From assembly GCA_023267075.1 (NCBI GenBank), contig JAHFNY010000007.1, positions 1 to 32,502 of the forward strand: DNA of 32,502 nt, written 5' to 3'. Within the stretch, counting starts at the first letter, position 1; each line of letters starts with the position of its first letter. A program made the translations under genes and the position numbers. Origin of the DNA: Candidatus Vogelbacteria bacterium (lineage in GTDB: Bacteria > Patescibacteriota > Minisyncoccia > Phycocordibacterales > XYD1-FULL-46-19). This document shows positions 2,043 to 32,019 of this stretch, one piece after another. The notes under the pieces were generated by a model. That model worked only from the letters and a program-made list of their open reading frames with translations, was not told the origin of the DNA and did no database searches.

Positions 2043-2058
2043 TTAAGGTGAAGTAACT

Positions 2059-2090
2059 AAAACCCCCCGGCCCTAGGGCCGGGGGGTTTT
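2059..2090 (+). terminator. Rho-independent terminator downstream of the pilin
   Basis: AAAACCCCCCGGCCCTAGGGCCGGGGGGTTTT, a perfect 32-nt palindrome 16 nt after the pilin stop. Confidence 0.92.
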
Positions 2091-2110
2091 GTGTTATAAT
2101 TACTTATACT

Positions 2111-2908
2111 ATGTTGGCGCTTATTGGCTATATTTTTACCTTTGTTTTAGGGACCATCATCGGTAGCTTCTTAAACGTGGTGATATTACGTTATCACACT
2201 GGCGAGACCCTCCACGGCCGCTCGCGCTGTCTCTCGTGCCGAGCGACGCTCCAACCGATTGATCTTATCCCCATCGTGAGCTTTATCAGCACTCGCGGCC
2301 GCTGTCGTTATTGCGGTTCTAAAATCAGTTATCAGTATCCGGTGGTAGAGTTATTAACGGGAATTATTTTTGCTCTTTTGTGGTGGCGTTTTAGTGGCTC
2401 ACCGATTGAGTTTCTCCTTATGGCGGTGGCGGCTAGCCTCTTAGTGGTGATCACAGTTTACGATATTCATCATCAGATCATTCCCGATGAATTAGTGTTT
2501 TACTTTGGCGTGGTGGGTTTGCTCGCGCCGATTTTCCACGCCTTGGTTACCGGGTCGCTCGCTTTGCTCGTTATTGGTTTTCTCCATAGCCTGTTAACGG
2601 GCGGGATTTTCTTCTTGGCTTTTTGGGGTTTATGGCGACTCTCGGGCGGCCGGTGGATTGGTTTAGGCGATGCTAAACTATCCTTTGGTATCGGCACCTT
2701 ACTGGGATTAGCCAAAGGTTTGACGGCGCTTTTAACTGGTTTCTGGCTCGGGGCGATTATCGGTCTTCTTCTCTTGCTTGCCAGTCGTTTTAAGCTGAAG
2801 AAATTAGATCATTACTTTACCTTGAAGAGTGAATTACCCTTCGCGCCGTTTCTGGTCATTGGCTTATTGCTTGTCCTTATCTTTAATTTAAATGTCATTC
2901 CGTTATAA
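2111..2908 (+). CDS. pilD: Prepilin peptidase (A24 family, PilD-like)
   Basis: GSFLNVVILR, CLSCRATLQPIDLIPIVSFISTRGRCRYCGSKIS (CxxC...CxxC), VYDIHHQIIPDELV and GLGDAKL motifs. Confidence 0.95.
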   Translation: MLALIGYIFTFVLGTIIGSFLNVVILRYHTGETLHGRSRCLSCRATLQPIDLIPIVSFISTRGRCRYCGSKISYQYPVVELLTGIIFALLWWRFSGSPIEFLLMAVAASLLVVITVYDIHHQIIPDELVFYFGVVGLLAPIFHALVTGSLALLVIGFLHSLLTGGIFFLAFWGLWRLSGGRWIGLGDAKLSFGIGTLLGLAKGLTALLTGFWLGAIIGLLLLLASRFKLKKLDHYFTLKSELPFAPFLVIGLLLVLIFNLNVIPL

Positions 2909-3527
2909 AAATTTTAAACTTAATCAGCAAAGCGGCTTCTCTTTGTTGGAGATGATCGTGGTAACGGCCATTTTTGTTACGGTTACCGGGATTGTCCTTG
3001 CCAATTTACCCACCTTCCGCAACCGGGCTTCGCTTGATTTAACCGCTCAAGAAATGGCTTTGGCTATACGTGAGGCTCAAGTGTATGGCACAGCCACGCG
3101 AGTGAGTGGTGATACTTATCCGTCATATGGCATTCACTTCCAATTAACTGATGGGCCAGCTAAAGACTTTGTCTTATTTGCTGATGCTAATACTAATAAA
3201 GCCTATGATCTTGGCGCTGATTGTAATAAAACTGGTCAAGAGACAGAATGTTTAGATAAATATTTGTTGGACGGCAATTTTAAAATCACTGATTTGTGCG
3301 TGGATAGTGTGAGCAATTGTGTTAAGACCAATCAGATCATTGATGTGGTTTATACCCGACCTTTCCCTGAGCCAAGTATTTGTGATTTATCTGGTTGTAA
3401 TCACAATACCGCTTACGTCATTATTAGTTCACCCGACGGCAGCGATTATCGAGTGGTGGCTATTTGGAACAATGGTCAAATTACGGCTGAAAATCCGGCT
3501 AATCAGGCTAAAACTAATCAACCATGA
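2892..3527 (+). CDS. Prepilin-like protein (GspH/FimT-type)
   Basis: QQSGFSLLEMIVVTAIFVTVTGIVLANLP; overlaps the pilD 3' end. Confidence 0.85.
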   Translation: MSFRYKNFKLNQQSGFSLLEMIVVTAIFVTVTGIVLANLPTFRNRASLDLTAQEMALAIREAQVYGTATRVSGDTYPSYGIHFQLTDGPAKDFVLFADANTNKAYDLGADCNKTGQETECLDKYLLDGNFKITDLCVDSVSNCVKTNQIIDVVYTRPFPEPSICDLSGCNHNTAYVIISSPDGSDYRVVAIWNNGQITAENPANQAKTNQP

Positions 3528-4060
3528 AGTTTAAACCAGAACAGGGGGGATTTACTCTCATTGAAATTATGGTGGCGGTGTCGCTTTTTATTGTGGTGGC
3601 GTTTATTACCACCAGTGCCTTTACCTCTTTTACCGAGGCCAGTCGGCGCTCTCAAGCCATTCGTAATAATATTGATAACTTAAACTTTGCCATGGAGAGT
3701 ATCGTCCTTAAGATTAGAGAGGGTAATAATTATAGCTGTCTGGAAGATGATGACGTGGCCGCTGGTGTGACTCATGATTGTCCGACCGCACCCAGTCAGA
3801 CAATTGCCTTCTTGGCGGATAATGGCGATGTGGTGAAGTATAAATTTGCTCAAGATGCAAGTGGGGGGACAATTTTAAAATCAGAAAATGGCAGCGCTTT
3901 TGAACCGATCGTCGCTACTCAAGTGAATGTCTCGCGGCTTGATTTCTATGTGAAGAATGGCGAGCGGCCGCTAGCGAGAATTGTGATTCAAGGATCAGTC
4001 ACCACCGCGGCTGGAGCGAGTGAATTCACTTTACAAACCACCATCTCTCAACGGCCATGA
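3524..4060 (+). CDS. Prepilin-like minor pilin
   Basis: EQGGFTLIEIMVAVSLFIVVAFITTSAF; ATGA overlap with the upstream ORF. Confidence 0.85.
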   Translation: MKFKPEQGGFTLIEIMVAVSLFIVVAFITTSAFTSFTEASRRSQAIRNNIDNLNFAMESIVLKIREGNNYSCLEDDDVAAGVTHDCPTAPSQTIAFLADNGDVVKYKFAQDASGGTILKSENGSAFEPIVATQVNVSRLDFYVKNGERPLARIVIQGSVTTAAGASEFTLQTTISQRP

Positions 4061-4638
4061 TAGTTAAAATTAAACAACTTAAGCTGGTTTCTAGGGAAAG
4101 AGGTTTTACATTGATTGAAGCGTTTATTGCCATTTCTATTTTACTGATTGCCGTCATTGGGCCGATGTCGCTTATCTCTCAATCGATTGCCGATGCCAAT
4201 TATGCCGCCAGTCAAATTACCGCTTTTTACTTGGCTCAAGAAGGACTGGAGTTAGTGATCAATCAACGGGAGTTAAACAATAGCGCTGGTCGTGAGGCTT
4301 GGCTTACGGGTTTAGATAATTGTCTTGACGGTAAAAAATGCGAAGTTTCTCTCGATGATAACTTTACTTTAAAAACTTCTCCCTGTGATCCGGTGACTGG
4401 TTGTACTGACCCACTTTACTTAGACACGGCCACTGGGATTTTTAGTTATGATAATTTTAGCGCTCGCCCCACCACTTTCACTCGGACGATTACTATTAGT
4501 CCGCCTCAATCTATCGCGGTTAAAAATAATGGCACTAATGTGGATATTACTATTGATGCTAAAGTAGATTCGACGGTGAGTTGGAGCGATAAGGGCGTGC
4601 CGCGGTCATTTACTCTCTCAACTTTAATTACCGATTAA
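4057..4638 (+). CDS. Prepilin-like minor pilin
   Basis: RERGFTLIEAFIAISILLIAVIGPM; ATGA overlap with the upstream ORF. Confidence 0.85.
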   Translation: MIVKIKQLKLVSRERGFTLIEAFIAISILLIAVIGPMSLISQSIADANYAASQITAFYLAQEGLELVINQRELNNSAGREAWLTGLDNCLDGKKCEVSLDDNFTLKTSPCDPVTGCTDPLYLDTATGIFSYDNFSARPTTFTRTITISPPQSIAVKNNGTNVDITIDAKVDSTVSWSDKGVPRSFTLSTLITD

Positions 4639-18769: not shown

Positions 18770-18815
18770 AAAAAAAGACCCCAGCTAGCCTTGTGTGGGT
18801 CAAGGCTAGCTGGGG
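18770..18815 (-). terminator. Rho-independent terminator of the receiver-like gene
   Basis: Perfect 15-bp stem CCCCAGCTAGCCTTG/CAAGGCTAGCTGGGG with 7-nt loop, T tract on the minus strand. Confidence 0.93.
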
Positions 18816-18850
18816 TGTGCGTGGGGACGCGGGGCGGAGATCGAGTGATT

Positions 18851-28740: not shown

Positions 28741-29412
28741 ATGAATAAAGAATCGCGGGTAATTGTGAAGTTGAATTCTGACTTTTCTGCTCGAGATAGT
28801 TTTGAATTGGCAGAGTTGTTGGCACCATATGTCCACTCCATTGCTATTGGTTGGGATGTTTTATTGAACGAATTTGATTTCCAACGATGGCAAGAAGACA
28901 ATAAGCTGTTTTTTCTGCTGAATTTTTACGATATCAAGGAGACTGTTTTGAGAGCGGTCAGGATTATTGACCAAAGTACTTCGATTTGGGGTTGTAGCGT
29001 TAGTCTTGATGTGCAGAAGGAAACCCTTCATACCCTGAAACGGGAAGTCTCAAATAATTGGCGCATAAAAGGTGGCCAGAGTCCGCTTCAAATTTTTGGC
29101 ACTAAACCCGGGAGAGATTTCGCTTATTGGGATTGGGTTAATTTGCACAATTTTTGTGATGGGGTGATCTTTCGGCATAAAGACAAGGACTTTGCCAGAA
29201 TTAAGAGTCTACCCCTTCCTCAATCGATTATCTTGACCGATGTTGAGTCGCCAACAGAAGTGGTTAAGCAGGGGGTAGATTATGTGATTTTGGGAGAGGA
29301 AATTACTGGAGTCGGTGATCCAGTTCTTGCAGTTGAGAGAATTAACGATGAAATTGAAACGGCAAAGACTGCAATTAAATTGGCGGCAGCCGGCTTCGTC
29401 GGTGACGCGTAA
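28741..29412 (+). CDS. Divergent orotidine 5'-phosphate decarboxylase-like (TIM barrel) protein
   Basis: FFLLNFYDIKETVLRAV aligns with the OMPDC FLDLKFHDIPNTV segment; GVDYVILGEEITGVGDPVLAVERINDEIE resembles the OMPDC C-terminal phosphate site; SD AGAGGGGG. Confidence 0.65.
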   Translation: MNKESRVIVKLNSDFSARDSFELAELLAPYVHSIAIGWDVLLNEFDFQRWQEDNKLFFLLNFYDIKETVLRAVRIIDQSTSIWGCSVSLDVQKETLHTLKREVSNNWRIKGGQSPLQIFGTKPGRDFAYWDWVNLHNFCDGVIFRHKDKDFARIKSLPLPQSIILTDVESPTEVVKQGVDYVILGEEITGVGDPVLAVERINDEIETAKTAIKLAAAGFVGDA

Positions 29413-29487: not shown

Positions 29488-29628
29488 ATGGCTATGGCTG
29501 ATAATAACCCCACACCCCAACCCCCAGTCGTGTCACCTCATTTCTTGTTTTCTTCTGGTGATGAGGATGATATCTTTAAACCTCATCAGCAAGATGAATT
29601 TGCATCAGAAGGAGAGATGCAGTTTTGA
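29488..29628 (+). CDS. Putative 46-aa protein
   Basis: Not in ORF track: SD AAAAAAAGGAAA-ATG; MAMADNNPTPQPPVVSPHFLFSSGDEDDIFKPHQQDEFASEGEMQF*; terminator 14 nt after stop. Confidence 0.6.
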   Translation: MAMADNNPTPQPPVVSPHFLFSSGDEDDIFKPHQQDEFASEGEMQF

Positions 29629-29641
29629 TCCAGCCTTTTGA

Positions 29642-29678
29642 CCCCGCCGGTGGCGTTGACACCGGCGGGGCTTTACTT
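29642..29678 (+). terminator. Terminator hairpin copy 1 with embedded -35 box
   Basis: CCCCGCCGGTG-GCGTTGA-CACCGGCGGGG-CTTTACTT. Confidence 0.9.
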
Positions 29679-29684
29679 TAGTTT
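29656..29684 (+). promoter_or_regulatory. Putative promoter of the 81-aa ORF
   Basis: TTGACA-N17-TAGTTT; -35 lies in the terminator loop/3' arm. Confidence 0.5.
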
Positions 29685-29738
29685 TAAATTAGAAATGAGT
29701 TCCTAACATGTAGAGTAAACCCAAACCGGGAGGAATGA

Positions 29739-29984
29739 ATGGTGAGTAAAAGTTTAAGAGAGATAGCGGTAGAGGTGGCTAAGATAGGGGAAAATATTTT
29801 ACTTCATGACCCAAAATCAGGCCGGAGACTTATCGAACTGGGAAAAATGCTTGAAGAGATTAATCCTGGTTTGATTATACCGGCGGATCAAATCGAGCCA
29901 GCGGAAAAAAGGTTTGGTAGTCCTGATTATCCTGATGACCCTTTTGATGGCAATTGTGCTGATGGAACACCTATTTTTAGGTAA
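29739..29984 (+). CDS. Hypothetical protein (81 aa)
   Basis: SD CGGGAGGAATGA-ATG; terminator immediately downstream. Confidence 0.65.
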   Translation: MVSKSLREIAVEVAKIGENILLHDPKSGRRLIELGKMLEEINPGLIIPADQIEPAEKRFGSPDYPDDPFDGNCADGTPIFR

Positions 29985-29999
29985 TAGATTCCCATCCTG

Positions 30000-30036
30000 C
30001 CCCGCCGGTGGCGTTGACACCGGCGGGGCTTTTCTT
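30000..30036 (+). terminator. Terminator hairpin copy 2 with embedded -35 box
   Basis: CCCCGCCGGTG-GCGTTGA-CACCGGCGGGG-CTTTTCTT; first 33 nt identical to copy 1. Confidence 0.92.
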
Positions 30037-30041
30037 ATAAT
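30014..30041 (+). promoter_or_regulatory. groES-groEL promoter
   Basis: TTGACA-N16-TATAAT, 8 nt before the groES ATG. Confidence 0.85.
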
Positions 30042-30049
30042 ACGAGCGT

Positions 30050-30349
30050 ATGAAAAACATTCCTCTTAAGCCCCTGGGCGATCGGGTAGTCATTCTCGCC
30101 GGTGAAGCTAAATCTGGTAAGACTAAATCCGGTCTGATTATCCCCGAGACGATTAATAAAGAACGGCCGGAAGAAGGCCTGGTGGTGGCCGTGGGTCCGG
30201 GTAAAATGGACGACGGCAAGCTGGTGCCAATGACGGTGAAGAAGGGTCAGCGCGTGCTCTTCTCTAAATACGGTCCGGATGAAATTAAGATTGACGGCCA
30301 GGAATATTTAATCGTCAGCGAGTCGCAAGTTTTAGCCATTATTGAATAA
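30050..30349 (+). CDS. groES: Co-chaperonin GroES
   Basis: IPLKPLGDRVVI...KTKSGLIIPETINKERPEEGLVVAVGPG; directly upstream of groEL. Confidence 0.96.
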   Translation: MKNIPLKPLGDRVVILAGEAKSGKTKSGLIIPETINKERPEEGLVVAVGPGKMDDGKLVPMTVKKGQRVLFSKYGPDEIKIDGQEYLIVSESQVLAIIE

Positions 30350-30351
30350 CT

Positions 30352-32019
30352 ATGTCAGCTAAACAAATTTTATTTAACGAGAAAGCCCGCAAGTCCTTAA
30401 AGAAGGGGATTGATAAACTGGCCGCCGCCGTCCAGATGACGCTGGGCCCCCGCGGTCGCGCCGTAGTGATTGAGAAGAGTTATGGCGCGCCGCAAGTTAC
30501 CTTAGATGGCGTGACGGTAGCCAAGGAGATTGAGCTGGAAGACAAGTTTGAGAACTTGGGCGCCAATTTACTGAAGCAAGCTGCCGATAAGACTAACGAT
30601 AAAGTAGGTGATGGCACGACGACGGCGATAATTCTCGCCCAAGCGATTATTGAAGAGGGCGAGAAGGCGGTGGCCGAGCGCGGCTTCAACGTCATTCACT
30701 TGGCGGATGAAATTAAGAAGGGCAGTGTGGAAATTAGTAAAGCCCTAGAGGCTCAAGCCGAGGAAGTAAATGATAAAAAGAAGGTGGAGGAAGTGGCCAC
30801 CCTCTCGGCTAAAGATGCCGCCATCGGCAAGCTGATTGCCGGCGTTTTTGGCGAGGTGGGTAAAGAGGGGGTGATTACGATTGATGATTCTAATACCGTG
30901 GAGAGTTCATCCGAGGTGGTGGAGGGAATGCAATTTGATAAGGGTTATATCGCCCCGTATATGATTACTGATAGCGAGAAGATGGAAGCCAGTTACGACG
31001 ATCCGTACATTTTAATTACTGATAAAAAGATTAGTGCGATTAAAGATATTCTTCCGCTTTTAGAGAAGATGGCGGCCAGTGGTAAGAAAGACTTGGTGAT
31101 TATTGCTGAAGATGTAGATGGCGAGGCCTTAACCACTTTGGTGGTCAATAAGCTCCGCGGTATCTTTAACACTTTAGCGATTAAAGCGCCCGGCTTTGGC
31201 GACCGGCGGAAAGAAATGTTGGAAGACTTGGCAGTGGTGACGGGGGCGAAGGTGATTACGGAAGATATTGGTCTTAAACTTGATTTGGCGGAAGTAACGA
31301 TGCTCGGCCGGGCTCGGCGCGTAGTCTCGTCTAAAGATGTCACGGTAATTGTGGGTGGTAAGGGTAAGAAGACGGAGATTAAAGAGCGAATTGAGGCGAT
31401 TAAAGCCCAATTAGAAAAAACTGAATCTAAATATGATCAGGATAAGTTAAAAGAGCGCTTAGGTAAGCTCGCCGGCGGGGTGGCAGTGATTAAAGTGGGC
31501 GCGCCCACCGAGAGCGCCCAGAAGGATCTGAAGCAACGGGTAGAAGACGCCGTGGCGGCCACGCGGGCCGCGATGGAGGAGGGGGTAGTGCCGGGTGGCG
31601 GGATTGCCCTGTGGAATACCATTAGTATGGTGGCCGGTGAGACTACTAAAATTGCCGATAATGAGGCAGCGGCCGCGGCGCGAGATATCTTGCGTAAGGT
31701 CTCCCAAGCGCCGTTAGAAGCGATTATTGATAACTCCGGCGAGGCGGCCAGTAAAGTGATTAATGAAATTAAAGCGGCTAAAGATAAAGCCAAGACCAAG
31801 ACCGAGAAGTGGTGGCTGGGCTTTAACGCCAGTATTAATGAACTGGCGGATTTAAAAAAGGCGGGGATTGTGGATCCGCTCAAGGTGACCAAGACCGCCT
31901 TCCAAAACGCCGTTTCCGTGGCCGCTAATTACTTAACCATTGGCGCGGCCGTGGCCGAGATCCCCAAGAAAGAAGAATCACACACCCACGGCAACCCCGG
32001 CATGGGCATGGACTATTAG
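30352..32019 (+). CDS. groEL: Chaperonin GroEL
   Basis: [58 protein letters not shown]-terminus [12 protein letters not shown]. Confidence 0.98.

Follow-up and report, generated by a model that had tools for sequence, protein, structure and literature searches.

In intrinsic (Rho-independent) terminators, a GC-rich hairpin and a T tract stand directly after a stop codon, and in leaderless sigma70 promoters of the TTGACA-N16-TATAAT type the start codon lies at about +1. The junction upstream of the groES-groEL operon in a Candidatus Vogelbacteria genome exhibits both arrangements. However, it differs from other intrinsic terminators in that the loop and 3' arm of its hairpin also contain a consensus -35 element, and from other leaderless promoters in that its spacer is made of the terminator's 3' arm and T tract. 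At the frd-ampC junction of Escherichia coli, too, a promoter overlaps with the end of the preceding transcription unit; this promoter lies within frdD, and a terminator/attenuator follows the transcription start, within the ampC leader. We regard frd-ampC as the nearest precedent, although at groES the -35 element lies inside the hairpin and the predicted start lies downstream of it. The locus also resembles systems of polymerase recycling, in which a terminator near a promoter should favour the re-use of polymerase. In vitro, polymerase moves along DNA by diffusion after its release and initiates again at promoters in the vicinity (PMC6978380; also PMC6978322), the distance between terminator and promoter is expected by the authors to have an effect (PMC6978380), and RNA-sequencing evidence has been presented for antisense restarts in cells (PMC6978322). 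Recycling was demonstrated in vitro with separate elements, whereas the predicted groES elements are superimposed. In the library searched, in which subscription journals are few, no paper was found that describes leaderless promoters of this group or places a -35 element within a natural terminator hairpin.

The host genome comprises 551,529 bases in 27 contigs (45% GC, about 91% complete), and the window, i.e. the whole stretch of DNA that was analyzed, spans 32,502 nucleotides. The 33-mer CCCCGCCGGTGGCGTTGACACCGGCGGGGCTTT is present at 29642-29674 (copy 1) and 30000-30032 (copy 2) with 0 mismatches, as the initial annotation had stated (shuffle expectation, 0.00), and a search of the 551,529-base genome allowing up to 3 mismatches retrieved these two copies and no third. 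Each copy forms an isolated hairpin with a 7-nt loop and a T-rich tail, and TTGACA extends from the loop (TTGA) into the 3' arm (CA), in agreement with the annotation. The annotated stem length of 11 bp is correct for copy 1, and copy 2 actually has a 12-bp stem because of the extra pair G29999-C30029. The predicted RNA folds have energies of -26.6 kcal/mol (copy 1) and -30.1 kcal/mol (copy 2), and no shuffled sequence was equally stable. The features of the locus are listed below.

Table. Features of the groES junction and of a second terminator-promoter junction in the window
Feature	Position	Strand	Details
Second terminator-leaderless-promoter junction	2058..2113	+	15-bp hairpin 2058-2091; TATAAT 2095-2100; ATG 2111
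46-aa ORF	29488..29628	+	Upstream of hairpin copy 1; stop codon 13 nt before hairpin
Hairpin copy 1	29642..29678	+	11-bp stem 29642-29652/29660-29670; loop 29653-29659; interrupted T tail
81-aa ORF	29739..29984	+	GGGAGG before start
Hairpin copy 2	29999..30035	+	12-bp stem 29999-30010/30018-30029; loop 30011-30017; T tract TTTTCT; from folding and terminator scan
-35 element TTGACA	30014..30019	+	Hairpin copy 2: TTGA in loop, CA in 3' arm
-10 element TATAAT	30036..30041	+	Immediately 3' of T tract; spacer of 16 to TTGACA
groES (Cpn10)	30050..30349	+	Pfam PF00166, E = 3.3e-28; no ribosome-binding site
groEL (Cpn60)	30352..32019	+	Pfam PF00118, E = 1.3e-59; 2 nt after groES

Copy 2 combines the features of a terminator with those of a promoter. 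Its hairpin begins 15 nt past the stop codon of the 81-aa ORF and is stable, GC-rich and directly followed by the TTTTCT tract; an approximate terminator score d, obtained with our own rough re-implementation, reaches ~42 in copy 2 compared with ~4 in copy 1. The TTGACA-N16-TATAAT arrangement, whose spacer falls within the 16-18 range of sigma70 hexamer pairs, matches the sigma70 promoter at 12/12 positions and is the best of 34 sites in the 19.5 kb scanned. The motif TTGAC-N16-19-TATAAT is enriched throughout the family and occurs 16 times in the genome, with one of these matches inside a hairpin, compared with 0 matches in the reversed control. The full match, the leaderless spacing and the enrichment over the control thus support the earlier assignment of copy 2 and TATAAT to the groESL promoter.

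The position of this promoter relative to its gene was absent from the initial description. The groES ATG lies 8 nt downstream of the end of TATAAT, and the gene is not preceded by a ribosome-binding site, so that both sequence features of a leaderless gene are found. Across the genome, exact TATAAT peaks 6-11 nt upstream of ATG, with 55 sites in six positions versus roughly one per position elsewhere; many transcripts of this organism are probably leaderless. Because its TATAAT lies at a distance that matches the genome-wide peak, groES is probably leaderless as well, with a predicted transcript start at or adjoining its ATG.

Copy 1 appears to carry out only the first of these two functions. 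It is a probable weak terminator of the 46-aa ORF, and its T tract (CTTTACTTT) is weaker than that of copy 2. Its TTGACA (29656-29661) is followed by no usable -10 element: the corresponding position reads TTAGTT or TAGTTT, and the best candidate, TAGTTT at a spacing of 17, matches at 3/6 positions. Copy 1 is not among the promoter-like sites of the scanned region, and it lacks a sigma70 hexamer pair at the required spacing. The earlier proposal that copy 1 and TAGTTT drive the 81-aa gene was therefore rejected for lack of a credible -10; TAGTTT is also ~55 nt away from an ORF that has its own GGGAGG. Neither small ORF has a Pfam match (29491-29625 was scanned for the 46-aa ORF), and no credible homologue of the 81-aa ORF was found among 40 relatives. 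Since copy 1 retains an apparently useless TTGACA, it is probably a recent copy of copy 2, a direction of copying that we infer.

The close succession of terminator and promoter is not confined to groES in this genome. Among 73 terminators found 3' of genes, seven are followed by a leaderless -10 element within 60 nt. In three of these seven junctions (window position 2058, groES and one on contig C7), the hairpin or T tract extends into the -35 position, and only groES has TTGACA there. At 2058..2113, the hairpin includes the -35 position, whose sequence does not resemble TTGACA. A separate 16-bp hairpin at window 18778-18816 has a tail of seven Ts (CTTTTTTTAT) and, on the minus strand, TTGACC in stem and loop, but no -10 follows; it is apparently a plain minus-strand terminator.

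In the relatives examined, the groES -35 element is in no case covered by a terminator hairpin. In G010, the closest relative by groES identity (73%), and in G011 (69%), a terminator is followed by a separate leaderless promoter, and in G011 TTGACA starts 8 nt past the hairpin. An 8-bp inverted repeat over the groES -35 element of G002 lacks a T tail and was not counted, as short repeats of this kind are expected by chance (2.9 of 95 promoter contexts in shuffles). Given the unfused order in G010 and G011, the fusion of terminator and promoter at groES is apparently derived and represents a more compact arrangement.

The same kind of fusion is found at other loci of the family. A scan of 397 genomes of the order with a composite pattern gave 10 matches versus 5 in the reversed control, a result that is weak on its own. 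Upon inspection, four of the 10 matches had a stem over the -35 element: one of 5 bp (L083) and three strong fusions, all from the same family, namely groES in the present genome, G008 (CCAAAATCCCGCCCTGTTGACAGGGCGGGATTTTGG, with TTGACA-N17-TATAAT in a 16-bp hairpin) and G014. Inspection of more family promoters added fusions in G002, G013, G005 and G010. Stems of 11 bp or more overlap the -35 element in 9 of 95 promoter contexts versus 0.25 in shuffles, although the contexts were partly selected for GC- or T-rich spacers and the count is therefore inflated. Thus, the absence of similar overlaps in related genomes, which the initial annotation had named as evidence against its reading, applies to groES in the relatives examined and does not extend to their other loci.

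The fusions in G002, G005, G013 and G014 are located at the 23S rRNA promoter, and Rfam confirmed the 23S gene downstream of the promoter in G002 and G013. The G004 23S rRNA promoter is probably an interrupted version, so that four or five genera have the arrangement at this promoter. The 23S promoter lies outside any hairpin in the present genome and in G003, G006, G007, G008, G009 and G012, which indicates that the fusion is optional at this locus. In the fused 23S promoters, TTGACG is constant while the surrounding stem varies with compensation, 6/16 pairs being changed on both sides. In a covariation analysis, 97.2% of cells were paired, 0/500 shuffles gave results as high and slid controls were lower, but the sample of five sequences, selected for this look and in part for GC- and T-rich spacers, was small and biased, so that these figures are inflated.

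The 23S region shows further features, in the present genome (contig C13, 24512-24765, in L066) and in the regions upstream of 23S in L124, L125, L130, L139, L140, L167, L169-L171 and L174-L175. The 23S rRNA has a promoter of its own. Across genera, its leader contains a recurring short ORF of ~10-14 codons, MNSKRTAKTKRKE being one example, whose ..AAGCGG-like end is conserved and which may represent either a leader peptide or an RNA element.

We consider it likely, from the arrangement of the sequence elements, that the hairpin at 29999-30035 serves through compaction both as the intrinsic terminator of the 81-aa gene and as the -35 element and spacer of the groES-groEL promoter. Alternatively, the hairpin may be a terminator and nothing else, with an incidental TTGACA, and groES may be transcribed by upstream readthrough or from a different promoter. 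The occurrence of the same TTGACA in copy 1 without a -10 and the existence of two other terminator-promoter junctions in the genome without any -35 agree with such an arrangement. However, it leaves unexplained the combination of exact TTGACA, exact 16-nt spacing, exact TATAAT and leaderless distance, as well as the lack of reversed-control matches to the motif in the genome and the repeated independent occurrence of the fusion in the family, and we judge it unlikely.

The two copies also invite explanations that center on the repeat itself. The 81-aa ORF is an orphan enclosed by two identical direct repeats of 33 bp, in a genome where repeats of at least 22 nt are scarce, as would be expected of a mobile or recombining unit in which the hairpin and the 81-aa gene were inserted beside groES. 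Yet only two copies exist, none was found in viral contigs, the 21-nt core is shared by just two unrelated genomes in a scan of the genome collection, and no recombinase was identified beside the repeats. Moreover, mobility would account at most for the duplication and not for the promoter, and this origin seems very unlikely. A repressor operator, i.e. a CIRCE-like heat-shock element common to the 81-aa gene and groES, would fit an inverted repeat that spans the groESL -35 element and recurs upstream of two genes. In conflict with this idea, the CIRCE sequence (TTAGCACTC-N9-GAGTGCTAA) is absent from the groES promoter and gave two 4-mismatch chance matches elsewhere, and HrcA (PF01628) was not found in the genome, which is about 91% complete, in a search with positive controls. 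The 33-mer sequence is present neither at other loci of the genome nor in relatives, and both copies come after stop codons and carry T tails. We therefore regard an operator as very unlikely and as the least probable of these readings.

In the favoured dual arrangement of terminator and promoter, the RNA form of the copy 2 hairpin would end transcription of the upstream 81-aa gene, and the same bases, as double-stranded DNA, would provide the -35 hexamer and the spacer of the groES-groEL sigma70 promoter. Such a junction most likely originated by compaction of an ordinary succession of terminator and leaderless promoter, which is unfused in relatives. Because the hairpin lies upstream of the predicted transcript start, it would have no role in the groES mRNA. 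Sigma region 4 recognises duplex DNA, and a cruciform at the hairpin would thus disable the -35 element, making a supercoiling effect through cruciform extrusion possible. The initial annotation had also raised the possibility that readthrough or supercoiling is coupled to groESL expression. A terminating polymerase would cover the groES promoter, so that heavy transcription from upstream would be expected to occlude it for a short time; after its release, the polymerase would be well placed for a restart at this promoter.

The overlap is probably a genuine space-saving device, since relatives build the same kind of structure elsewhere, including at 23S rRNA genes. As a counterpoint, the TTGACA of copy 1, which lacks a -10, has no visible use, and the hexamer may be present in the groES hairpin partly because the two copies have their hairpin sequence in common. 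In a broader reading, a -35 element inside the preceding terminator would be a selected device of the family at highly expressed units (23S rRNA and groESL), handing the released polymerase to the next promoter or letting upstream transcription gate the downstream unit. We put this forward as a tentative and rather doubtful extension.

Other repeats and ORFs were observed in the genome. The region 857-4619 of contig C15 (L021) looks like a diversity-generating retroelement. The variable C-termini of its two target genes are almost identical (ending ..LGLASARNC), an ORF at 3953-4619 resembles a reverse transcriptase, and a copy near 3050-3140 is template-like. Each target gene is followed by a copy of the same 105-nt segment, which contains a terminator; this duplicated segment is unrelated to the 33-mer and belongs to the retroelement-like locus. 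The palindrome CCCAAGGTG[A/T]CACCTTGGG occurs in four copies (contig C13 at 17694, 17887 and 18371, and contig C18 at 5766), also within longer hairpins. Between secG and groES, a 223-aa ORF (window 28741-29412) scores below threshold against the OMP decarboxylase/HUMPS family (21.2 bits versus a cut-off of 27; E = 0.00031).

The terminator and the promoter at groES are each ordinary; their fusion, which places a full-consensus -35 element in the hairpin and is seen upstream of a predicted leaderless chaperone operon as well as, independently, at the rRNA promoters of relatives, was not found in the literature searched. At such junctions, RNA-level termination and DNA-level initiation would constrain the same bases, which provides a compact and testable case, and at the 23S rRNA promoters the stems covary around a fixed -35 element. 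The prediction of terminators or promoters alone would misread junctions of this type in tiny genomes. If transcription confirms the arrangement, it would constitute a natural system for the interplay of termination, promoter occlusion and polymerase recycling.
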